In this document: positions 1-13,719 of the stretch, piece by piece
Layout: every line of letters starts with the position of its first letter
Numbering within the stretch: the stretch's first letter is position 1
DNA from: a virus
Reading direction: 5' to 3' (one strand)
IMG/VR virus record: IMGVR_UViG_3300032287_000004
Span: 1-20,167 of that record
DNA length: 20,167 bases
Notes under the pieces: generated by a model
The model's database searches: none
The model's input: only the letters and a program-made list of their open reading frames with translations
What the model was told of the DNA's origin: nothing
Translations under genes and position numbers: made by a program

Positions 1-674
1 CATTGAGTTCTTTTGCGTTTAAGCAAGAGTACTTGTCTAGCTTTGATACTGCAGGTGCAGATGTCTTTAAAGAGGAATGGTTCAAGACTTCTGAAGAACC
101 TAAGAGTGGTACATACATTGTAGCCATTGACTTAGCTGGCTTTGAAGAGGTTGGTAAGAATGCTGGGGCTTCTAAGAAGAGACTGGATGAGACAGCTATT
201 GCAGTTGTTAAGTTAAAAGAGAATGGTGATTGGTGGGTAGATAAGATACAGCATGGTAGATGGGACATCAGAGAGACTGCTGTGAACATCTTAAAGATTG
301 TAAGAGACTATCAACCAACAGCTGTAGGTATTGAGCGAGGAGCATTGAAGAATGCTGTACTGCCCTACCTGACTGACTTGATGAGAAAGAATAACATCTA
401 CTCACACATTCAGGACTTAACTCACGGTAATAAGAAGAAGGTAGATAGGGTTGTCTGGAGCTTACAAGGTCGTATGGAACATGGAAGGGTATCCTTCAAT
501 GAGTCAGAGGACTGGAGTGAGTTTAAGGATCAACTGATTATGTTTCCCACAGCTGGCGTACATGATGACTTAGTGGATGCTCTAAGTTACATTGACCAAC
601 TGGCTATTGCTTCCTACAACGCTGACTATGAGGAAGAAGAGTGGGATGTTTATGACAAGATTGCTGGCTATTAA
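1..674 (+). CDS. terL: Phage terminase large subunit, C-terminal (nuclease) part, 5' truncated
   Basis: The frame is open from the left edge, so the N-terminal ATPase lies outside the window; the TTG at 3 is not a convincing start. The visible 223 residues begin with a linker typical of T7-like large terminases (YLSSFDTAGADVFKEEWF), then an RNase H-like nuclease fold: AIDLAG with Asp43 as the first metal ligand, a strand with LDETAIAVV, GIERGALKN with Glu111, and a final HDDLVDALSY with Asp188/Asp189. The enzyme cuts concatemeric phage DNA and drives it through the portal into the prohead. The portal gene lies about 900 bp downstream, separated by three small genes. The stop at 672-674 runs into the Shine-Dalgarno sequence of the next gene. 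Family assignment is confident from the motif order; the catalytic residue assignments are by analogy. Confidence 0.92.
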   Translation, partial: LSSFAFKQEYLSSFDTAGADVFKEEWFKTSEEPKSGTYIVAIDLAGFEEVGKNAGASKKRLDETAIAVVKLKENGDWWVDKIQHGRWDIRETAVNILKIVRDYQPTAVGIERGALKNAVLPYLTDLMRKNNIYSHIQDLTHGNKKKVDRVVWSLQGRMEHGRVSFNESEDWSEFKDQLIMFPTAGVHDDLVDALSYIDQLAIASYNADYEEEEWDVYDKIAGY

Positions 675-686
675 AGGAGAATGACT

Positions 687-902
687 ATGGCTAATGGTTT
701 GTATGCAAATATTAATGCTAAACGTAAACGTATCGCAGCTGGTTCTGGCGAGAAGATGAACAAGGTAGGCTCTAAAGCTGCTCCGTCTAAGATGGACTTT
801 GTTAACTCAGCTAAGACTGCTAAGCCAACTAAGGCAATGCCCGTTAGAGGTAGCCGTACAGCTACGAACAAGGCTAAGAAGACTACTAAGAGTATGTACT
901 GA
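687..902 (+). CDS. Small basic phage protein (71 aa), function unknown
   Basis: This 71-residue Lys/Arg/Ala-rich protein starts MANGLYANINAKRKRIAAG. An in-frame ATG at 681 lies only one base after the AAAGGAG at 673-679, so the ATG at 687, with normal spacing, is the better start. I recall similar short proteins with a GLYANI-AKRKRIAAGSGEKM opening in other podoviruses near the terminase or portal gene, always unannotated. The high positive charge and lack of any membrane segment suggest nucleic-acid or head contact, but that is inference. The gene sits between the large terminase and the DUF6321-like gene and is read with them. Confidence 0.82.
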   Translation: MANGLYANINAKRKRIAAGSGEKMNKVGSKAAPSKMDFVNSAKTAKPTKAMPVRGSRTATNKAKKTTKSMY

Positions 903-903
903 C

Positions 904-1161
904 ATGAAGGACTCTAGACTTGAGAGAGCTGGTGTCAGTGGCTTTAACAAACCTAAGAAGACACCTAATCATCCAACTAAGAGTCACGTAGTTGTGGCTA
1001 AAGAGGGTGATGAAGTTAAGACTATCAGGTTTGGACAGCAAGGTGTCTCAGGTTCTCCTGAAGGTTCAGCTCGTAACGATTCCTTCAAAGCTCGTCACGC
1101 TAAGAACATTGCCAAAGGTAAGATGTCAGCGGCCTACTGGGCAAACAAAGTTAAGTGGTAA
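904..1161 (+). CDS. DUF6321-like small basic phage protein (85 aa)
   Basis: The protein starts MKDSRLERAGVSGFNKPKK and ends KGKMSAAYWANKVKW. The middle has KSHVVVAKEGDEVKTIRFGQQGVSG and FKARHAKNIAKG. I associate this pattern (NKPK-TPNHPTKSHVVVAKEGD ... RFGQQGV ... FKARHAKNI ... SAAYWA-KVKW) with the uncharacterised phage family DUF6321; the family name is from memory. The reading frame extends upstream to an ATG at 799, but those 35 codons overlap the previous gene and have no homology-like content, so 904 is preferred. The start follows the previous stop by one base, suggesting coupled translation. No function can be assigned; the protein is basic, soluble and probably made with virion genes. 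Confidence 0.85.
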   Translation: MKDSRLERAGVSGFNKPKKTPNHPTKSHVVVAKEGDEVKTIRFGQQGVSGSPEGSARNDSFKARHAKNIAKGKMSAAYWANKVKW

Positions 1162-1167
1162 ACAGAT

Positions 1168-1590
1168 ATGCAATGCCCTATTGAAACACATGACGTTAAA
1201 GCTAACCTGAAGAACAGGGATTGGGCTTTTAAGAACGTAGGCTATGGCCCAGCTAACCCTGAACTCTCCAATGGAGCCTTCTGGAATGATAAAGCTAATG
1301 AGTGGCAAACAAGTCTCTCACAGGCTAAGTCAATGCGCTGTGGTAACTGCTCAGCTTTTATCCAAACACCTCAGATGATGGAGTGTATCAGGTCAGGTAT
1401 TGATGCTGAGACTGATAGCTTTGCTGGTGATGTCGTAGATTCAGCTAAGCTAGGTTTCTGTGAGTTATTTGACTTTAAGTGTGCAGCTGAGAGAACTTGC
1501 AGTGCATGGTTAGTAGGTGGCCCAATAACATCTAGCAAGGTCACAGAGATTGACGACAATGCTCTAGATGATTCAACTAAGGATATGTAA
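1168..1590 (+). CDS. Cysteine-rich phage protein with HiPIP-like Cys spacing (140 aa)
   Basis: The protein has seven cysteines (3, 58, 61, 73, 98, 105, 111). The core pattern is C58-G-N-C61, then GFC98ELF, then TC111SAW. This resembles the C-x2-C ... C-x-L-F ... W-C-x-S/A-W arrangement that binds a [4Fe-4S] cluster in high-potential iron-sulfur proteins, although the C61-C98 distance is longer than in classical HiPIPs and there is no export signal. A structural zinc site is an equal possibility. The gene lies between the DUF6321-like gene and the portal, 2 bp from the portal start. The Shine-Dalgarno sequence is weak. I recall comparable proteins next to portal genes in aquatic podoviruses, without a known function. 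The gene call is confident; cofactor binding is inference. Confidence 0.85.
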   Translation: MQCPIETHDVKANLKNRDWAFKNVGYGPANPELSNGAFWNDKANEWQTSLSQAKSMRCGNCSAFIQTPQMMECIRSGIDAETDSFAGDVVDSAKLGFCELFDFKCAAERTCSAWLVGGPITSSKVTEIDDNALDDSTKDM

Positions 1591-1592
1591 TT

Positions 1593-3605
1593 ATGGATGA
1601 GATTGGAAAAGACAGTCCCTTTGAGGAACCTACAGAGTCTGAGAAGGAATTAACCTCTTGGATTATTGACCACACAGATCGCTGGCGTGACCATCGTGAT
1701 GCTAACTACATGGATCTATGGGAAGAGTATGAGCGTATCTTCCGAGGCCAGTGGGCTTCTGAGGATAAGCAACGTGAGTCTGAGCGTAGCCGTATCATCT
1801 CTCCAGCTTCTCAGCAAGCTGTTGAGACTAGACACGCTGAGATCATGGAAGCCATCTTTGGTCAGGGTGAATTCTTTGACATCCAAGATGACGTTAAAGA
1901 CATCAATGGTAATCCATTAGATGTTGAACAGATCAAGGTTCAACTACACGAAGACTTCAAGAGAGATAAGATTAAGAAGTCAGTAGATCACGTTGAGCTA
2001 ATGGCTGAGATATATGGTACTGGTATCGGTGAGATTATTGTTAAGACTGAGAAAGAATACATCCCAGCTACACAGGCAATCCCCGGTATAGCCAGTGCAG
2101 CAGCTATTGGTGTTCAAGAGAAGGATAGAGTTGCAGTTAAGATCAAGCCTATCAATCCTAAAAACTTCCTCATTGATCCTAATGCTGATTCTATTGACGA
2201 TGCTCTGGGCGTTGCTATCGAGAAGTACGTATCCATTCACAAGATTGTTGCAGGTATTGAGAGTGGCATTTACAAGAAAGTAGACATCACACCTCAGTAT
2301 GATGATGAAAAGCTAGAGCCAACACAAGATCTACGTACCTTTGAAGACGATAAAGTTAAGTTGTTAACTTATTATGGATTGGTTCCTCGTGAGTACTTAG
2401 AAGGCATGGAAGAAGGTGACAGTGAGATCACAGACCTGTTCCCAGATGACTCAGTAGCTGATAACCACTCAGACTTAGTTGAAGCTATCATTGTGATTGC
2501 CAATGACTCAGTACTTTTGAAGGCTGAAGCTAATCCTTACATGATGAAGGATAGACCAGTCATTGCCTACCAAGACGATACAGTCCCCGGCAGGTTCTGG
2601 GGTAGAGGTACGATGGAGAAAGCCTACAATATGCAGAAGGCTATTGATGCTAATCTACGTGCTCAGATGGACTCTATGGCACTGACCACAGCTCCAATGA
2701 TTGCTATGGATGCTACAAGGCTTCCTCGTGGTGCTAAGTTTGAGATTAAGCCCGGTAAGGCTATCTTGACCAATGGTGCACCTTCTGAGATCCTGTATCC
2801 CTTCAAGTTTGGTCAGACTGATGCTAGCTCAGCTGTAGCAGCTCAGAACTTTGAGCGTATGCTCCTGCAAGCTACAGGCACAGTTGACAGCGCTGGTATG
2901 CCCTCTAACGTACCTCGTGACGCAGGTGCTGGTGGTATGTCTATGGCTATGGCTGGCATCATCAAGAAGTACAAGCGTACCTTGAGTAACTTCCAAGAAG
3001 ACTTCATGATCCCGTTCATTAACAAGGCTGCCTTCAGGTATATGCAGTTTGACAGTGAGCGTTACCCCTCAGTTGACATGACCTTTATCCCCACAGCTAC
3101 CTTGGGTATCTTGGCTAGAGAGTTTGAACAACAACAGATGATTGGTTTGTTGCAGACACTTGGCCCTAACACTCCAGTACTGCCATTGATCCTAAAAGGT
3201 ATCCTGCAGAACAGCTCATTGTCTAACCGTGGTGAGTTGATGAAGGCTTTGGATCAGATGTCACAGCCTAATCCACAGGCTGCTGAGGCTCAACAAGCAA
3301 CACAACAAGCTGCAATGCAACTTGCACAGGCTCAAGTGGCTGATCTGACCTCTAAAGCTCAGAAACAACAGGCTGAGGCTCAGAAAACTATGATTGAAGC
3401 ACAGATGATCCCTGAAGAGCATCGTGTCAAAATCGTTCAAGCTGCTGCTACTAACCTAGATAATGGTGGAGACTTTGAAAAGCGTCTGAAACTGGCTGAC
3501 ATGATGCTAAAAGAGAAGCAAGTTAACCTCAAAGCTGCTGATATTGCCTCTAATGAGCGTATTGCAAGCCTTCAGATGATGAATAAGCAACAGAAAATAC
3601 AATAA
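1593..3605 (+). CDS. Portal (head-tail connector) protein
   Basis: This 670-residue protein has the length and features of podovirus portals: an acidic N-terminus with a DRWRDHRDANYMDLWEEYER segment, a core containing PVIAYQDDTVPGRFWGRG and KAYNMQKAIDANLRAQMD, then the crown region. The last 110 or so residues are a Gln/Ala-rich coiled coil (QAAEAQQATQQAAMQLAQAQ onward), like the barrel at the C-terminus of T7/P22-type portals. The dodecameric portal sits at one head vertex, docks the terminase and later the tail adaptor. The ATG at 1593 follows TAAGGAT with suitable spacing. A host-type promoter starts right after the stop, so the portal closes the first transcriptional block. Confidence 0.93.
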   Translation: MDEIGKDSPFEEPTESEKELTSWIIDHTDRWRDHRDANYMDLWEEYERIFRGQWASEDKQRESERSRIISPASQQAVETRHAEIMEAIFGQGEFFDIQDDVKDINGNPLDVEQIKVQLHEDFKRDKIKKSVDHVELMAEIYGTGIGEIIVKTEKEYIPATQAIPGIASAAAIGVQEKDRVAVKIKPINPKNFLIDPNADSIDDALGVAIEKYVSIHKIVAGIESGIYKKVDITPQYDDEKLEPTQDLRTFEDDKVKLLTYYGLVPREYLEGMEEGDSEITDLFPDDSVADNHSDLVEAIIVIANDSVLLKAEANPYMMKDRPVIAYQDDTVPGRFWGRGTMEKAYNMQKAIDANLRAQMDSMALTTAPMIAMDATRLPRGAKFEIKPGKAILTNGAPSEILYPFKFGQTDASSAVAAQNFERMLLQATGTVDSAGMPSNVPRDAGAGGMSMAMAGIIKKYKRTLSNFQEDFMIPFINKAAFRYMQFDSERYPSVDMTFIPTATLGILAREFEQQQMIGLLQTLGPNTPVLPLILKGILQNSSLSNRGELMKALDQMSQPNPQAAEAQQATQQAAMQLAQAQVADLTSKAQKQQAEAQKTMIEAQMIPEEHRVKIVQAAATNLDNGGDFEKRLKLADMMLKEKQVNLKAADIASNERIASLQMMNKQQKIQ

Positions 3606-3618
3606 GTTAACAAAAGAC

Positions 3619-3647
3619 TTGACAAAGTGTTGTTTTTATGCTACAAT
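3619..3647 (+). promoter_or_regulatory. Strong sigma70-type promoter with extended -10
   Basis: TTGACA at 3619-3624 and TACAAT at 3642-3647 are separated by 17 bp, with TG one base before the -10 (3639-3640). This near-consensus host promoter lies in the 80-bp gap after the portal gene and would drive the genes from 3686 to the capsid, ending at the terminator near 6050. A dyad ACAATA-N4-TATTGT (3643-3658) overlaps the -10 and the likely start point. Confidence 0.85.
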
Positions 3648-3685: not shown

Positions 3686-3919
3686 ATGGCCCCTGATTTA
3701 CAGAAATATTACGAAGAAACCTTCAATACGATGAGTACTGAGGGTTGGAAGTTCCTCTTAGAGGACTTAGAAGAGATTAAGGTTAGTTTAAACAATCTCT
3801 CTACTGTCAACGATACACAAACACTCTTTTATCGTCAAGGACAGTTAGATATTATTGAATTAATCTTAGGGCGTAAGGCTGTGTGTGAGAAGGTATTTGA
3901 GGATTTAGAAGATGAGTAG
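3686..3919 (+). CDS. Conserved small phage protein upstream of the scaffold (77 aa)
   Basis: An acidic, mostly helical 77-residue protein (MAPDLQKYYEETFNTMSTEG, then EDLEEIKVSLNNL and YRQGQLDIIELIL). I recall similar proteins of the same length with the pattern LQKYYEE-F..M...GW....ED and GQLDI between portal and scaffold genes of T7-like aquatic phages; none has a known role. The ATG follows AGAAGGA with good spacing and is the first gene after the strong promoter, so it should be well expressed. No membrane segment or metal motif is present. A head-assembly helper is a reasonable guess from position only. Confidence 0.85.
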   Translation: MAPDLQKYYEETFNTMSTEGWKFLLEDLEEIKVSLNNLSTVNDTQTLFYRQGQLDIIELILGRKAVCEKVFEDLEDE

Positions 3920-3977
3920 CAGACGTAACTGGATAGGAACCCTGTATCGGTTCTCGACTCCAAGGAGTCTGCGATGA
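3912..3977 (+). CDS. Possible 21-codon leader or coupling ORF
   Basis: A short frame MSSRRNWIGTLYRFSTPRSL-R starts at an ATG inside the end of the previous gene (8-nt overlap) and ends with TGA at 3975-3977, overlapping the ATG of the zinc-ribbon gene at 3974 (ATGA). It fills the only gap between the two genes. A weak GAGG lies upstream. It is basic and too short to classify. It could be a real micro-protein or a device that carries ribosomes through two hairpins to the next start. The overlap at both ends is the only support. Confidence 0.3.
   Translation: MSSRRNWIGTLYRFSTPRSLR
3937..3969 (+). promoter_or_regulatory. Two tandem hairpins covering the zinc-ribbon gene's ribosome site
   Basis: GAACC (3937-3941) can pair with GGTTC (3949-3953) across a 7-nt loop, and GACTCC (3956-3961) with GGAGTC (3964-3969) across only two A residues. 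The second stem contains the AAGGAG that serves the ATG at 3974, so the ribosome site may be hidden until translation upstream opens it. A two-base loop is tight, so the inner pair would have to open. There is no U-tract, so it is not a terminator. Confidence 0.4.
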
Positions 3978-4219
3978 AACGCATCTATGACTTCTTATGT
4001 ACCAACGATCACATAACTGAATCGCTGGTTGATAGCGATCATACCACTGCTAAATGTAAGGTATGTAGTAAGGACGCTATCAGGGTTGTATCCTCCCCAA
4101 GGATAAAGCTGGATGGTTGCTCAGGCGATTTCCCTTCAGCTTCCGATAGGTGGGTACAAGTACGGGCTGAAAAGCTCAGGCAGGAACAGAAGCAGAACGC
4201 ATCTCATGTAGGTGACTAA
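3974..4219 (+). CDS. Small zinc-ribbon phage protein (81 aa)
   Basis: The N-terminal half has the layout of an FmdB-like zinc ribbon: Y5-D-F, Cys9, His13, then Cys28-K-V-Cys31, giving a C-x3-H ... C-x2-C site, followed by RVVSSPRIKLDG. The C-terminal half is helical and charged (RAEKLRQEQKQN). Podovirus proteins with this ribbon plus an I-x-APRIKLDG-like strand are often encoded just before the scaffold gene; their role is unknown. The AAGGAG at 3962-3967 lies seven bases before the ATG, within a small hairpin. Zinc binding is inferred from the cysteines. The scaffold gene follows. Confidence 0.82.
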   Translation: MKRIYDFLCTNDHITESLVDSDHTTAKCKVCSKDAIRVVSSPRIKLDGCSGDFPSASDRWVQVRAEKLRQEQKQNASHVGD

Positions 4220-4277
4220 CTCTGAATTCATTTATAACACTCCTAAAACCCATTACAGGGCAGGACGAAAGGTAGGT

Positions 4278-5054
4278 ATGGCTCTCATTGACCAAGAAGA
4301 ATTGGGACAAAGCGAATTTGATGCAGTAGAAGAACTACAGGCGGCTCGTGCAGCACCTGCAGAACCTCAAGAAGAAGTCTCCAGAGTTCCCGACAAGTAT
4401 CGGGGTAAAAGCTTAGAAGACATTGTGACGATGCACCAAGAGGCTGAAAAGCTAATCGGTAGGCAAGCACAAGAAGTTGGGGAAGTTCGGAGACTCGCAG
4501 ATGAGCTATTGAAACAGCAACTCTCTCAGAAACAAGTACAGCCTGCAGTAGTAGAGAATGAGATAGACTTCTTTGAAGATCCGCAGTCAGCGATTCGCAA
4601 AGCAGTAACAAATCATCCTGATGTATTAGCCGCTAAACAAGCTTCTGCACAGCTAAAGCAAATTCAGACACACGCAATGCTCAACAAGAAGCATCCTGAC
4701 TTTGCAGACGTTGTACGTGACGTTGAGTTTCAAGAGTGGGTTAAAGCTTCTCCAATGAGGCTTAATATCTACGCAATGGCTGATGCTAATTATGATTTCA
4801 ATGCTGCAGATGAATTACTCACAACATTCAAACAGATCCGGACATCTAAGACACAACAAACAACTGATGCCGGAAATGCTGTACGCAAGCAAAACTTGTC
4901 AGCAGCATCTGTAGATGTTGGAGGGACTGGTGAATCATCTAAGAAAGTATATCGTCGTGCCGACCTTATCCGGCTACGTATGACAGACCCTAATCGCTAT
5001 GAAGCACTTGAACCTGAAATTCGAGCAGCTTATAACGAAGGTAGGGTTAAATAA
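4278..5054 (+). CDS. Capsid assembly scaffolding protein
   Basis: This 258-residue, acidic, Gln/Ala/Glu-rich helical protein precedes the capsid gene, the standard place for a scaffold. The segment PDKYRGKSLEDIVTMHQEAE followed by KLIGRQAQEVGEVR is characteristic of the T7-like scaffold family in aquatic phages, and a helical central part is followed by a short basic C-terminus (YRRADLIRLRMTDPNRYEAL), where scaffolds bind the capsid. The scaffold is a temporary core that shapes the prohead and then leaves. I chose the ATG at 4278, which has GAAAGGTAGG upstream. An in-frame GTG at 4212, overlapping the preceding stop, would add 22 residues but has no clear ribosome site and a non-family-like extension. 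Confidence 0.88.
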   Translation: MALIDQEELGQSEFDAVEELQAARAAPAEPQEEVSRVPDKYRGKSLEDIVTMHQEAEKLIGRQAQEVGEVRRLADELLKQQLSQKQVQPAVVENEIDFFEDPQSAIRKAVTNHPDVLAAKQASAQLKQIQTHAMLNKKHPDFADVVRDVEFQEWVKASPMRLNIYAMADANYDFNAADELLTTFKQIRTSKTQQTTDAGNAVRKQNLSAASVDVGGTGESSKKVYRRADLIRLRMTDPNRYEALEPEIRAAYNEGRVK

Positions 5055-5069
5055 ATTAACATAAACATA

Positions 5070-5085
5070 AATTCTTAGGAGAATT
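5070..5085 (+). promoter_or_regulatory. Hairpin presenting the capsid gene's Shine-Dalgarno
   Basis: AATTCT (5070-5075), TAGG (5076-5079), AGAATT (5080-5085) form a perfect 6-bp stem with a tetraloop. The Shine-Dalgarno TAGGAG is half in the loop and half in the 3' arm, five bases before the ATG at 5090. The stem is AT-rich and weak, so it may tune rather than block initiation or protect the message. A second small dyad, GTTAA-N5-TTAAC, is at 5046-5060. Confidence 0.4.
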
Positions 5086-5089
5086 AAAA

Positions 5090-6016
5090 ATGGCTTTAGG
5101 TACAGATCACGTCACGAAGACGACGGCTGATAAATTCATCCCCGAAATCTGGAGTGATGAAATCGTTGCAACATACAAGAAGAACTTGGTGTTGGCTAAC
5201 TTGGTTAAGAAGATGACCTTCAAGGGTAAGAAAGGTGACACCGTTCACATTCCTTCACCCACACGTGGCAATGCTACTGCTAAAGCAGCTTCAACTCAGG
5301 TAACACTGATTGCAGCTACTGAGACAGAAGTTGTTGTTACTATCGATCAGCACTATGAGTACAGCCGCTTGATCGAGGACATCGTCGAAGCTCAAGCTTT
5401 GTCTTCACTGCGTAACTTCTACACTGAAGATGCTGGTTATGCTCTTGCTCGTCAAGTTGATACATCATTGATCCAAATTGGTCGTTTTGTCCAAGGCGGT
5501 GGTGGTACTTCTGCTTACTCTGGTGCTTTCTCAGGTGCTGACGGTACTACAGCTTATGTTGGTGGTTCCACTAACACAGGTTTGGGTGCTCTTACTGATG
5601 CAGCGATTCGTCGTAGCATTCAGCGTTTGGATGACAATGACGTTCCTATGGACGGTCGTTTCCTTGCTATCCCACCTTCAAGCCGTAACACTTTGATGGG
5701 TTTGGCTCGTTACACTGAACAAGCTTTTGTTGGTGAAATGGGTAACAACAACACCATTCGTAACGGTGAAATTGGTAACTTGTACGGTGTTCCCGTGTTT
5801 GTTACTTCTAATGCTGATACTACTAACGGTACTACCGCTTGCCGTATTGCACTGTTGGGTCATAAAGACTTCGCAGTGTTTGTCGAGCAAATGGGTGTTC
5901 GCTCACAGACTCAGTACAAACAAGAGTACCTCGGTACATTGTTCACAGCTGACACACTGTATGGCGTGAAAGAACTGCGTGACGGTTCAGCAGTTGCTTT
6001 GGCTGTTCCAGCTTAA
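5090..6016 (+). CDS. Major capsid protein (T7-like, HK97-fold)
   Basis: The 308-residue product opens MALGTDHVTKTTADKFIPEI and then has WSDEIVATYKKNLVLANLV, KGKKGDTVHIPSP, DQHYEYSRLIEDIVEAQALS and a P-domain region with DAAIRRSIQRLDDNDVP and MDGRFLAIPPSS, ending NLYGVPVFVTSN, a run to TLYGVKELRDGSAVAL. This order matches the phage capsid family of aquatic T7-like podoviruses. It assembles, on the scaffold, into the icosahedral shell. A strong TAGGAGA precedes the ATG, the scaffold is immediately upstream and an intrinsic terminator follows within 50 bp. Codon use is strongly optimised (GGT, GCT, CGT, AAC), as expected of the most abundant protein. I see no slippery site near the stop for a longer frameshifted form. 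Confidence 0.95.
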   Translation: MALGTDHVTKTTADKFIPEIWSDEIVATYKKNLVLANLVKKMTFKGKKGDTVHIPSPTRGNATAKAASTQVTLIAATETEVVVTIDQHYEYSRLIEDIVEAQALSSLRNFYTEDAGYALARQVDTSLIQIGRFVQGGGGTSAYSGAFSGADGTTAYVGGSTNTGLGALTDAAIRRSIQRLDDNDVPMDGRFLAIPPSSRNTLMGLARYTEQAFVGEMGNNNTIRNGEIGNLYGVPVFVTSNADTTNGTTACRIALLGHKDFAVFVEQMGVRSQTQYKQEYLGTLFTADTLYGVKELRDGSAVALAVPA

Positions 6017-8090: not shown

Positions 8091-10472
8091 ATGGCTACAA
8101 TTATTACAAAGAATAGCAGTACAGCCTCAGCAGCTCCTGCAGTTGGTGACTTAACCAAGGGTGAGTTAGCTGTTAACGTAACAGACAAGAAGCTGTACAC
8201 CAAAGACAATAATGCAGCTATTGTTAAGATTGTAGGTTCACTTGGTAATCAGGAAGCTAATGCTGTAGCCATCACAGGTGGCTCAGTTACAGGCATTACA
8301 GACATTACTGTAGCTGACGGTGGTACTGGTGCTTCAACAGCTGCTAATGCTCGTACTAATTTAGGTGCTGCAGCTAGTGGTGCTAACAGTGATATTACCT
8401 CATTAACTGGTCTTACAACAGCTTTGACAGTAGCTCAAGGTGGTACTGGAACTACAACTTCAACAGGCAGTGGTAATGTAGTCTTGTCTACATCCCCTAC
8501 ACTGGTAACACCCTCTTTAGGCACTCCTTCAGCTCTAGTGGGAACTAACATTACAGGTACAGCTGCAGGTTTGACAGCTGGTAGTGTAACTACTAATGCT
8601 AACCTTACTGGTGCTGTAACTTCTACTGGTAATGCAACATCTTTAGGATCATTTACATCTTCACAGTTGGCTACAGCTTTGACTGATGAAACTGGTTCAG
8701 GCTCAGCTGTGTTTGCTACTAGCCCTACCTTGGTTACACCTATCCTTGGAACACCTACTAGCGCAACTTTAACAAATGCTACAGGGCTTCCTATTAGTAC
8801 TGGTGTATCTGGTCTAGGAACAGGCGTAGCAACCTTTCTAGGTACTCCATCAAGTGCTAACTTGCTTGCGGCTGTTTCTGATGAGACAGGTACAGGAGCT
8901 TTGGTCTTTGCTACCTCACCTACCCTAGTTACACCCGCATTAGGCACTCCAAGCTCATTAGTAGGTACAAATATAACAGGTACTGCTTCAGGTCTAACTG
9001 CGGGTAACGTCACAACAAATGCTAACTTAACAGGTGCAGTTACTTCAGTAGGTAATGCAACTTCTCTTGGTTCCTTTAGTTCTGCTAATCTTTTAGCGGC
9101 ATTAACTGATGAAACTGGAACTGGTGTAAACGTATTTGCAACTTCTCCTACTTTGGTAACACCTATTCTTGGTACTCCAACAAGTGTCACCTTAACAAAT
9201 GCAACTGGTTTGCCTTTGTCTACTGGAGTCACAGGTAATCTACCTGTTACAAACTTAAATAGTGGTACATCTGCAAGCGCAACTACTTTTTGGCGTGGTG
9301 ATGGAAGTTGGGCAACACCTGCGGGTGGAGGTGGTGGAACACCCGGTGGTTCTACAACTCAAGTTCAATACAACAATGCAGGTGCATTTGGTGGCATTAC
9401 TGGTGCTACAACTAACGGCACAGCATTGACTCTTGTTGCTCCTGTTCTTGGCACTCCTGCAAGTGCTACTCTAACTAATGCCACAGGCTTACCTTTAAGC
9501 ACAGGTGTTACTGGTACTTTGCCTATTGCAAATGGTGGTTCAGGACAAACTACTGCTACTGCGGCTTTCAATGCTTTAGCACCTAGCCAAACAAGTAATT
9601 CAGGCAAGTATTTGACTACTGATGGAACAAATACTTCTTGGGCAACAGTAAGTGGTGGCTCAAGCCAATGGACAACTAGCGGTACACAAATTTATTACAA
9701 CACAGGTAATGTTGGAATTGGAACTACCTCTCCCGACACTTACACCGATGGTGCTAAGAACTTAACTTTACTTAGTTCTTCAGCAGGTCGCAGTAATTTT
9801 GCTTTGGTTGGTACGCAATCATCAGCAGATGAAATTCTTGGAAGACTTAATTTTACAAATACGAATACATCTAATGCTGCATATCGTCTTTGTATCATTG
9901 ATGCAAAAAGAGGAACTGATAATAATTCGGGATATTTTGACTTTAGTACATCCAATGCAGGAACAACAGCAGTACGAGCAAGAATTACACAAAGTGGTAA
10001 TTTATTGGTTGGCACTACAACTGAAACCTCATCAGCTGGTGTGCTTCAAGTTTCTAACGGCATCACATTCCCCGCAACTCAATCAGCATCATCAGACGCT
10101 AATACGCTAGATGACTATGAGGAAGGGACTTTTACGCCAACTCTTACATCTTCAGGTGGAACACTAACATCAGTATCTGTTGGCACAGGTTATTACACAA
10201 AAGTTGGAAATGTTGTAACTATAAATTGTAGGCCAGCAATAACAACAAATGGAACTGGTAGTGGTGCAATTTATATTGGTGGATTCCCTTTTGCATTAAC
10301 AGGTTCTGGTAGCGTTTTTTCTGGTGCGGGTAGAGAAGATTCTGTGGTGGGTTATGTTTTTGGTTTTAGTTCGCAAGGTGCAACTTCTCTTTATGTATCT
10401 AAATATGACAATACATACCCAGGCGGTAATGGGCATTCATTCGGAATTATGATAACTTATAGAACTTCATAA
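8091..10472 (+). CDS. Long repetitive tail fibre protein
   Basis: This 793-residue Gly/Thr/Ser/Ala-rich protein has typical fibre architecture. Residues 1-45 ([18 protein letters not shown]) form the attachment-like head, seen in many phage fibres. Then come GGTG(A/T)-S/T-T motifs and, from residue 135 to about 380, tandem repeats starting SPTLVTP-LGTP. A hinge ([12 protein letters not shown], Gly-rich) leads to a second part with [17 protein letters not shown] and [10 protein letters not shown]. The tip (from about 670) contains [13 protein letters not shown] and [12 protein letters not shown] and would bind the host receptor. No S74 chaperone motif is present. An AAAGGA precedes the ATG. 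The 3' half uses different Ala codons from the neighbours, suggesting recombination. The fibre lies upstream of the tail-adaptor gene, unlike in T7. Confidence 0.9.
8493..9236 (+). repeat. Coding tandem repeats of the tail fibre shaft
   Basis: Four units each begin with codons for SPTLVTP, at 8493, 8721, 8916 and 9144 (residues 135, 211, 276, 352). They alternate in type: a 76-residue A unit ([30 protein letters not shown]) and a 65-residue B unit ([13 protein letters not shown]). The A-B pair is thus repeated with a period of 141 residues (423 nt). A further partial B-like unit with [15 protein letters not shown] lies near 9440. The repeats differ much more at the DNA level than in protein, so they are old or diversified. 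Confidence 0.88.
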
Positions 10473-11530: not shown

Positions 11531-12181
11531 ATGGCTACGACATATTTACAGTTGGTTAACAACGTACTCATACGGTTAAGAGAAACTGAAGTATCGTCAG
11601 TAAGTGATACTCCTTATAGTTCTTTAATTGGTGTGTTTGTTAACGATGCTAAAAGAGAGATTGAAGATGCTTACGATTGGAACTGTTTAACTACTACCAT
11701 TGTTTTACCTACAGTAGCCAGTACTCGTAACTATACCTTGACAGGTTCAGGTCAAAGGTTCAGGACAGTGGATGTCTTGAATGACACCCAAGATGTACCT
11801 ATGAGGTCAGTACCTACTAACTGGATGAACAGACAGTACTACATCGGTACTACTCAGAATGCAGCTCCTATATACTATAACTACAGCGGTATCTCCAATG
11901 ATGATACTCAGGTAGATTTATGGCCTCAACCTGATAAAGTATATTCACTTAGGTTTGAATTAGTTATCCCTCAAGTTGACCTCAGTGCCAATGCTGACCT
12001 ATTAAAGGTTCCTCCACACTTAGTACAAATGTTAGCTTACGCTAAAGCTGTTGGTGAACGTGGTGAGGACGGTGGTACAACCTTCAGTGAAATATACCAG
12101 CAGTATCGCCTAGCTTTGGCAGATGCTATTGCTATTGAGAAGAATCGTTATGATGATGAAAACACTTGGGTTAATGTCTAA
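11531..12181 (+). CDS. Head-tail adaptor / tail tubular protein A (gp11-like)
   Basis: The 216-residue protein has T7 gp11-like features: MATTYLQLVNNVLIRLRETE, then LIGVFVNDAKREIEDAYDWN, a middle beta-rich region (VDLWPQPDKVYSLRFELVIP) and a C-terminal helix pair (VPPHLVQMLAYAKAVGERGE, YQQYRLALADAIAIEKNRY). Gp11 forms the ring between portal and nozzle. The ATG has AAGGA upstream at 11520-11524 and is the first gene after the second strong promoter. Its TAA overlaps the next ATG by one base (TAATG), which is usual for the coupled gp11-gp12 pair. Confidence 0.9.
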   Translation: MATTYLQLVNNVLIRLRETEVSSVSDTPYSSLIGVFVNDAKREIEDAYDWNCLTTTIVLPTVASTRNYTLTGSGQRFRTVDVLNDTQDVPMRSVPTNWMNRQYYIGTTQNAAPIYYNYSGISNDDTQVDLWPQPDKVYSLRFELVIPQVDLSANADLLKVPPHLVQMLAYAKAVGERGEDGGTTFSEIYQQYRLALADAIAIEKNRYDDENTWVNV

Positions 12182-13719
12182 TGGTTGCTAAGCTCTTAAC
12201 TACAACTGTAGCAGCTCCCGGCTTCATGGGGCTGAATACTCAGGATAGCTCAGTTTCTTTAGAGGCTGGTTATGCTACTGTGGCTAACAACTGTGTCATT
12301 GATAAGTTTGGACGTATTGGTGCTCGTAAGGGATGGACTCTATCTCATGCTGCTAACAATGACTTAAGCACTGCTGACGTTAAAGCTATTGGTGAGTTAA
12401 TTGACAATACTGGTAACTCATACATTATTGCAGCTGGTAACAATAAACTATTCAAACTTGTAGGTTCTACTCTTACATTATTGACATATGGTGGTGGTGG
12501 TACAGCCCCTACCATCACAGACAGTCACTGGCAGATGGCTCCATTGAACGGTGTATTATACCTCTATCAAGCTGGACATGATCCACTGGTGTTTGACCCT
12601 GCAGTCAGTACAACTACATTTAAGAGAATATCTGAGAAGACTGGATATGTAGCAACTGTAGTTAGTAACAACTGTGTAATCAGTGCCTATGGTCGTACAT
12701 GGAGTGCTAATAACTCAACCTCTAAGAGTACTGTACAGTTCTCAGATTTACTATCAGGTCATGTCTTAAATACTGGTACAGCTGGTACTTTGGATGTAGC
12801 TCAGGTGTGGCCTAGTGGTGCAGATGAGATTGTAGCCCTAGCAGCTCACAATAACTTCTTAATTATCTTTGGTCGTAGACAGGTATTGATATATTCTAAT
12901 GCTACTGATCCTAACAATCTAACACTATCAGATGCTATTACAGGCATGGGCTGTGTAGCTAGAGACTCAGTAGTAGCCACTGGTAGTGATGTTATATTCT
13001 TGTCTGACTCAGGCGTACGTTCACTGATGCGTACCATTCAAGAGAAGTCAGCACCTATGCGAGACATCAGTGCCAATGTGCGTGATGACTTAGTGTTTGA
13101 GATTACCTTAGAAACTGCAGCTGACATAAAAGCTGTGTATTCAGATAAGGAAGCATTCTATCTATTGTCTCTACCAACTCGTCAGTTAGTGTACTGCTTT
13201 GACATGAGAGCACCACTACCTAACGGAGCTAACAGGGTTACAACATGGGATGGCTTAGTTCCCACAGCTTTTAAGTATACTCGTAATAAAGATTTATTAA
13301 TTGGTGAATCAGGATACATTGGTAAGTACGATGGTTACAAAGACAACGCTAACTCATACCTATTGAGATACTTTACCAACTACTTTGACTTTCAATCACC
13401 TACTGTGATTAAGATTATGAAGAAGGTAGGCATAACAGTTATTGGTGGTCAAGGTTATCCAGTCACTTTAAAGTTTGGCTTTGATTACAGTGACATCTTG
13501 AACACACGACAGTTTGCTTTAGCTAATGCAACGATTGCTGAATACAACATAGCTGAGTTTGCTATTGGTGAATATGGTGGAACAGCCTTCGACAATAAGA
13601 TTATTAATATTGGTGGTTCAGGTAAGGTTATTCAACTTGGCTTTGAAACCAATGTATTTAATAAATCAATCTCCATTCAAAAACTTGATGTCTATGTTAA
13701 GACAGGAAAGACTAGGTAA
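12181..13719 (+). CDS. Tail nozzle / tail tubular protein B-like
   Basis: This 512-residue, beta-rich protein directly follows the gp11-like gene. Its N-terminus carries FMGLNTQDSSVSLEAGYATV then ANNCVIDKFGRIGARKGW, a signature of podovirus tail nozzle or stabilisation proteins. The middle contains propeller-like repeats (YLYQAGHDPLVFDP, NNFLIIFGRRQVLIYSNA, VIFLSDSGVRSL). It is shorter than T7 gp12 (near 800 residues), closer to the smaller tail proteins of aquatic phages. It likely forms the end of the short tail, through which DNA leaves. It starts at the overlap with the previous stop and lacks its own strong ribosome site. Confidence 0.85.
   Translation: MVAKLLTTTVAAPGFMGLNTQDSSVSLEAGYATVANNCVIDKFGRIGARKGWTLSHAANNDLSTADVKAIGELIDNTGNSYIIAAGNNKLFKLVGSTLTLLTYGGGGTAPTITDSHWQMAPLNGVLYLYQAGHDPLVFDPAVSTTTFKRISEKTGYVATVVSNNCVISAYGRTWSANNSTSKSTVQFSDLLSGHVLNTGTAGTLDVAQVWPSGADEIVALAAHNNFLIIFGRRQVLIYSNATDPNNLTLSDAITGMGCVARDSVVATGSDVIFLSDSGVRSLMRTIQEKSAPMRDISANVRDDLVFEITLETAADIKAVYSDKEAFYLLSLPTRQLVYCFDMRAPLPNGANRVTTWDGLVPTAFKYTRNKDLLIGESGYIGKYDGYKDNANSYLLRYFTNYFDFQSPTVIKIMKKVGITVIGGQGYPVTLKFGFDYSDILNTRQFALANATIAEYNIAEFAIGEYGGTAFDNKIINIGGSGKVIQLGFETNVFNKSISIQKLDVYVKTGKTR

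Follow-up and report, generated by a model that had tools for sequence, protein, structure and literature searches.

HiPIP-like folds with a [4Fe-4S] cluster are described for the accessory subunits of glycyl radical enzymes (the HPAD small subunit, BSS beta, and MASS beta and gamma) in PMC12358834. In the literature consulted, the Fe-S clusters described from phage particles belong to tail-tip proteins: those of the lambda gpL type are virion proteins with a [4Fe-4S] cluster whose role is open (PMC10721106). The literature searched, which included few subscription papers, yielded no study linking HiPIPs or Fe-S clusters to phage heads or Dps, or describing fusions of this kind. We analysed a 20,167-bp virus record (the window), in which the + strand bears nearly all long ORFs. 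One of its genes encodes P0001, which looks like a soluble relative of the high-potential iron-sulfur proteins (HiPIPs, PF01355) and neighbours packaging genes in freshwater phages. Glycyl radical enzyme subunits partner a metabolic enzyme, whereas the partner proposed for the phage protein is the phage head. The gpL-type proteins, compared here by description, sit at the tail tip and have a different cysteine spacing, whereas P0001 is encoded beside head genes.

The HiPIP label is not itself new, since the name already stands in GenBank records. A tblastn search of 50,697 phage records gave seven matches, all seven annotated 'high potential iron-sulfur protein'; those named are metagenomic phages (DSL-LC01 and the Manatee Spring records). 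These records belong to the same family as P0001, and the likeness they report is the name only. The DSL-LC01 paper (PMC10611076) uses none of the terms 'iron-sulfur', HiPIP and 'high potential' in its main text. A shorter and more distant family member, gp68 of Roseobacter phage CRP-13 ('hypothetical protein'), was reached via locus L083. IMG/VR scans with five queries returned 205, 25, at least 582, 133 and 32 confirmed candidate stretches, which partly overlap, and up to 80 loci were retained per scan. The family was found at no fewer than 309 loci in tailed-phage contigs. Six MAG contigs also matched the family search, while the plasmid search returned no relatives. PHROGs held no family for P0001, and the weak PHROG matches of other members were scattered.

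The gene and its surroundings are listed in the table below. The original prediction had placed it next to the portal, and this is borne out: the gene lies upstream of the portal gene, which starts 2 bp beyond its stop codon. Against close relatives, P0001 gave a median dN/dS of 0.091 (maximum 0.195; 37 of 128 pairs had usable dS), and this purifying selection indicates that the ORF is a real gene. The PHROG 7595 protein immediately upstream bears a weak resemblance to one portion of PHROG 220, a minor head protein and DNA pilot family, and its relatives neighbour the HiPIP-like gene at 94 loci; relatives of the zinc-ribbon protein at 3974-4219 are found near it at 30 loci.

Features of the window around the HiPIP-like gene
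Feature	Position	Strand	Basis or remark
Terminase large subunit, C-terminal nuclease part; open at window start	3-674	+	Terminase_6C (Pfam)
Small protein, conserved neighbour	681-902	+	PHROG 16028
Small protein, conserved neighbour	904-1161	+	PHROG 7595; alternative longer ORF 799-1161 listed
HiPIP-like protein P0001, 140 aa, ATG to TAA	1168-1590	+	Ligand-like C58, C61, C98, C111 and invariant C105
Codons 58-61 (C58-G-N-C61)	1339-1350	+	Sequence; placed on HiPIP CxxC by hhalign
Codon C98 (GFC98ELF)	1459-1461	+	Aligns with third HiPIP ligand
Codon C105, a fifth cysteine that is invariant in the phage proteins	1480-1482	+	199-row alignment
Codon C111 (TC111SAW)	1498-1500	+	Aligns with fourth HiPIP ligand
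Portal protein	1593-3605	+	PHROG 1216, E 5.7e-44; Pfam SU10_portal
Small protein between portal gene and 3974-4219 ORF			
FmdB-like zinc-ribbon protein, Cys-rich, between portal and head genes	3974-4219		PHROG 1076, E 0.00025
280-aa protein, placed where the scaffold gene usually lies	4212-5054		PHROG 13678, no known function
Major head protein	5090-6016		Tail genes downstream

An Rfam scan of the window gave no matches, and promoter and terminator scans near the gene found no more than in shuffled sequence. In the gap 3' of the portal gene we noted a strong sigma-70-like site (3619-3647, 11/12, with TG before the second hexamer); the total number of sigma-70-like sites was at the level of the shuffles. 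Further along the window, a long tail-fibre-like protein (8091-10472) has repeats that include SPTLVTPxLGTP segments. The top PHROG label of the ORF at 12181-13719 is 'amidase' (PHROG 5107); virion and head-closure families match it too, and the label looks doubtful.

P0001 has cysteines at positions 3, 58, 61, 73, 98, 105 and 111. Three motifs had been proposed to mimic the cluster-binding cysteines of HiPIPs, and all three (C58GNC61, GFC98ELF and TC111SAW) are identical in the translation. A MAFFT alignment of 199 rows was used to follow each position through the family. The four key cysteines, C58, C61, C98 and C111, are kept in 199/199 rows, as are C105 and G96. N60, F64 and R109 are each present in 198 rows and W114 in 196, while C73 is found in 167/199 and C3 in 166/199. 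It had also been suggested that the extra cysteines 73 and 105 might make a zinc site. Of these two, C105 is invariant, but C73 is replaced in 32/199 rows and was rejected as a completing residue of a metal site; since C73 is not invariant, a zinc site built from the pair is unlikely. Across the loci, the five-cysteine pattern was present in 308 of 309, and the exception (L323) ends at a contig edge.

With HiPIPs the phage family shares the CxNC start and the arrangement C-x2-C ... C-x12/13-C-x2-aromatic, and the HiPIP ligand pattern (C-x2-C, then C and C-x2-aromatic) was present in every one of the 199 rows. The 12-residue gap from C98 to C111 equals that of 2 of the 13 reference HiPIPs and is one shorter than in the other 11. 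The phage family differs from HiPIPs in having no GW before the last ligand, in a C61-C98 loop that is long and spans anywhere between 21 and 68 residues, and in the fifth invariant cysteine: the C-x6-C-x5-C spacing is constant in the listed rows, whereas none of the 13 reference HiPIP segments has a cysteine between the third and fourth ligands. It also differs in bearing no export signal. Neither RRx[FLIVM] nor a strongly hydrophobic stretch was found in the first 45 residues of any of 301 rows, which makes electron transfer in the periplasm, as in HiPIPs, unlikely.

We used profile comparisons to examine the relationship to HiPIPs. The reference set comprised 13 HiPIPs, L209 having been excluded from the 14 found. 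For A2, hhalign gave a pairwise E of 0.0032 against this set and placed C58, C61, C98 and C111 in register on the four HiPIP ligands, in line with the proposed mimicry. An alignment of 128 family sequences scored 24.24 (pairwise E 0.00085). This score was equalled by none of 200 full shuffles of the HiPIP columns, by none of 200 shuffles with the cysteines fixed and by 3 of 200 shuffles within segments, indicating that the phage family and HiPIPs share more than cysteine spacing. Of three such comparisons, those of the whole family and of the CRP-13 subgroup aligned in register, while in that of subgroup q2 the cysteines were out of register. Database searches gave weaker signals. Of 39 members, three matched the Pfam HIPIP profile, the lowest E being 0.061, short of its curated cut-off, and P0001 itself matched no Pfam family at E up to 1. 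No HiPIP was among the matches of single-sequence or profile searches of PDB sequences; the top single-sequence match, a ferredoxin (E 1.1), was dismissed as chance.

The fold was then predicted by template-free AlphaFold for two distant subfamilies, P0001 (pLDDT 89.9, pTM 0.80) and the CRP-13 type (pLDDT 81.2), whose input alignments partly overlap. Both models appear HiPIP-like, with HiPIPs heading the Foldseek and VIA-align lists in each case; neither these folds nor the homologues, which keep the four key cysteines, refuted the original prediction. When the P0001 model was compared with 350,542 PDB chains by Foldseek, 33 matches were obtained at E up to 10; ranks 1-11 were HiPIPs and 13 HiPIP chains were found in total (best E 0.21). 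In VIA-align, all 14 listed entries for P0001 were HiPIPs (Z 3.9-5.2), the match to 1b0y reaching Z 5.2 and rmsd 3.6 with 79 of 85 residues aligned. For the CRP-13-type model, HiPIPs took Foldseek ranks 1-2 (best E 0.097) and 14 of 15 VIA-align rows (Z 4.0-6.0; 1hrq, Z 6.0, rmsd 3.5, 74 aligned). The best HiPIP matches to the phage models span 57-87 aligned residues. The only non-HiPIP row was 2y8n_B (Z 2.6, 36 residues aligned), a glycyl radical enzyme chain that we take to be of the small subunit type called HiPIP-like; likeness to these subunits was confined to this row and to the CRP-13-type model. All these Z scores are below 8, a range in which a match may reflect merely a common arrangement, and no individual fold or family match, Foldseek and Pfam HIPIP included, clears a strict threshold. 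HiPIPs make up only about 15 of 177,635 distinct PDB sequences, so their top ranking is telling despite the weak scores.

The gene's neighbours were counted at 275 of the 309 loci, the remaining 34 being dropped when the ORF picker missed the gene. A terminase, portal or scaffold gene within four ORFs, or a maturation-protease fusion, was found at 171 of the 275 loci and at 78 of 140 after dereplication; the head-gene labels come from eight neighbour clusters, for each of which a single protein was scanned, either a member or a near homologue of the cluster representative, and fusions in this count were called by N-terminal likeness. The other 62 dereplicated loci had no labelled head gene nearby, some being short of sequence and some having the gene genuinely elsewhere. 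In MW202867, a single gene lies between the HiPIP-like gene and a 'putative DNA transfer protein', and in MW202879 some 16 kb separate it from the gene for the head-to-tail connecting protein, and large late genes surround it. The adjoining portals are of several families, SU10/P22-like in the window, PHROG 2662 in L188, PHROG 776 in L254 and PHROG 859 in L226; the neighbour in L171 (PHROG 332), counted among the portals, is labelled head-tail adaptor.

Pfam scans covered five loci of the main fusion types (L188, L214, L254, L261 and L279) and nine with other long frames (L190, L192, L198, L226, L233, L237, L242, L244 and L272). The HiPIP-like domain was found fused with Peptidase_S78 (L188, L214), with DUF5824 and Peptidase_S78_2 (XkdF) (L261, L279), and with DUF5872/DUF6321 (L198). 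Links or fusions to portal or protease, marking a phage head-maturation module, were observed in this family, and the fusion to head-maturing proteases suggests a part for a metal cluster in virus-head assembly. Immediately 3' of the portal gene in L254, a single reading frame (3716-5908, about 730 codons) combines a ferritin/Dps domain (Pfam Ferritin, E 4.7e-17), a very Cys-rich part, a second CxNC mini-motif, the HiPIP-like domain and DUF5824. Both L190:2165-3967 and L254:3716-5908 carry, 5' of the HiPIP-like domain, the second short motif CINCVLYEG..C..I....DGKCRFAVIPDG, which may be another small metal site.

Taken at even chances, our preferred reading is that P0001 is a soluble, cytosolic HiPIP-fold domain, probably with a [4Fe-4S] cluster, that is accessory to phage-head assembly. 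The domain would be made late, together with the packaging and head genes, and would not be exported. We infer that it most likely holds one [4Fe-4S] cluster through C58, C61, C98 and C111, for which W114, F64 and F101 are candidate shielding residues; C105 would be an additional, fifth cysteine peculiar to this family. In the head, the protein would probably be a small subunit with an accessory or assembly function, belonging to the portal, maturation protease or ejection-protein complex. Glycyl radical enzymes have accessory subunits with a HiPIP fold, and by analogy with these the phage cluster would probably serve chiefly in folding and in stabilising a compact domain.

The same fold could instead carry zinc or a purely structural Cys4 site, in a late structural mini-domain that never holds iron, which we regard as somewhat unlikely. 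Sequence cannot distinguish Cys4 sites from one another, and the fifth invariant cysteine and the lost GW before the last cysteine both depart from HiPIPs. A second small Cys-rich protein in the operon (3974-4219) is a likely zinc ribbon, and in the zinc-ribbon family test Zn_ribbon_12 was weakly touched by 5 of 39 members (best E 0.068). However, [4Fe-4S] proteins led the PDB fold matches, and the spacing C-x2-C ... C-x6-C-x5-C-x2-W differs from the CxxC knuckle pair of zinc ribbons; no zinc ribbon was among the listed fold matches of either model, which by itself excludes nothing. The fifth invariant cysteine also leaves room for a redox-sensing role or for a different metal.

If a cluster is present, it might work outside the head. 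P0001 would then be an auxiliary redox protein of the infected cell, engaged in electron transfer or relief of oxidative stress and carried as a passenger of the late operon. The HiPIP label is one of electron carriers, and at two loci, L082 and L085, the gene has NinB-type and recombination genes close by instead of an adjoining portal gene. Most labelled contexts nevertheless consist of head genes, fusions join the domain to proteases of head maturation, and export signals are missing from the family, although each of the 13 reference HiPIPs opens with an RR-type one; we consider this role quite unlikely. A virion-borne iron module, sometimes with a Dps-like ferritin domain, that handles iron in the particle and protects the packaged DNA or enters the host with it is suggested by the L254 frame, whose N-terminus is shared, by eye, by five further loci; a viral structure record named Dps also matches the fold. 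Such a module appears very unlikely, the Dps fusion being confined to one lineage and Dps not being recognised in the scanned window proteins.

The broadest version of the head-assembly reading is that many tailed-phage lineages have a HiPIP-derived [4Fe-4S] domain in their head-assembly machine, some with a ferroxidase-like Dps in one head polyprotein, and that redox-active iron in the heads acts either as a gate for maturation or in the protection or delivery of cargo; in this full form we think it unlikely. If the head-assembly reading is true, a metal cluster would enter head assembly through a widespread HiPIP-fold domain tied to the portal and to the proteases of head maturation, and a fold familiar chiefly from electron transfer in the periplasm would have a structural use in the cytosol. 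The question of why phages carry Fe-S clusters would also become directly testable, with the fifth invariant cysteine, C105, as a clear handle for mutagenesis.
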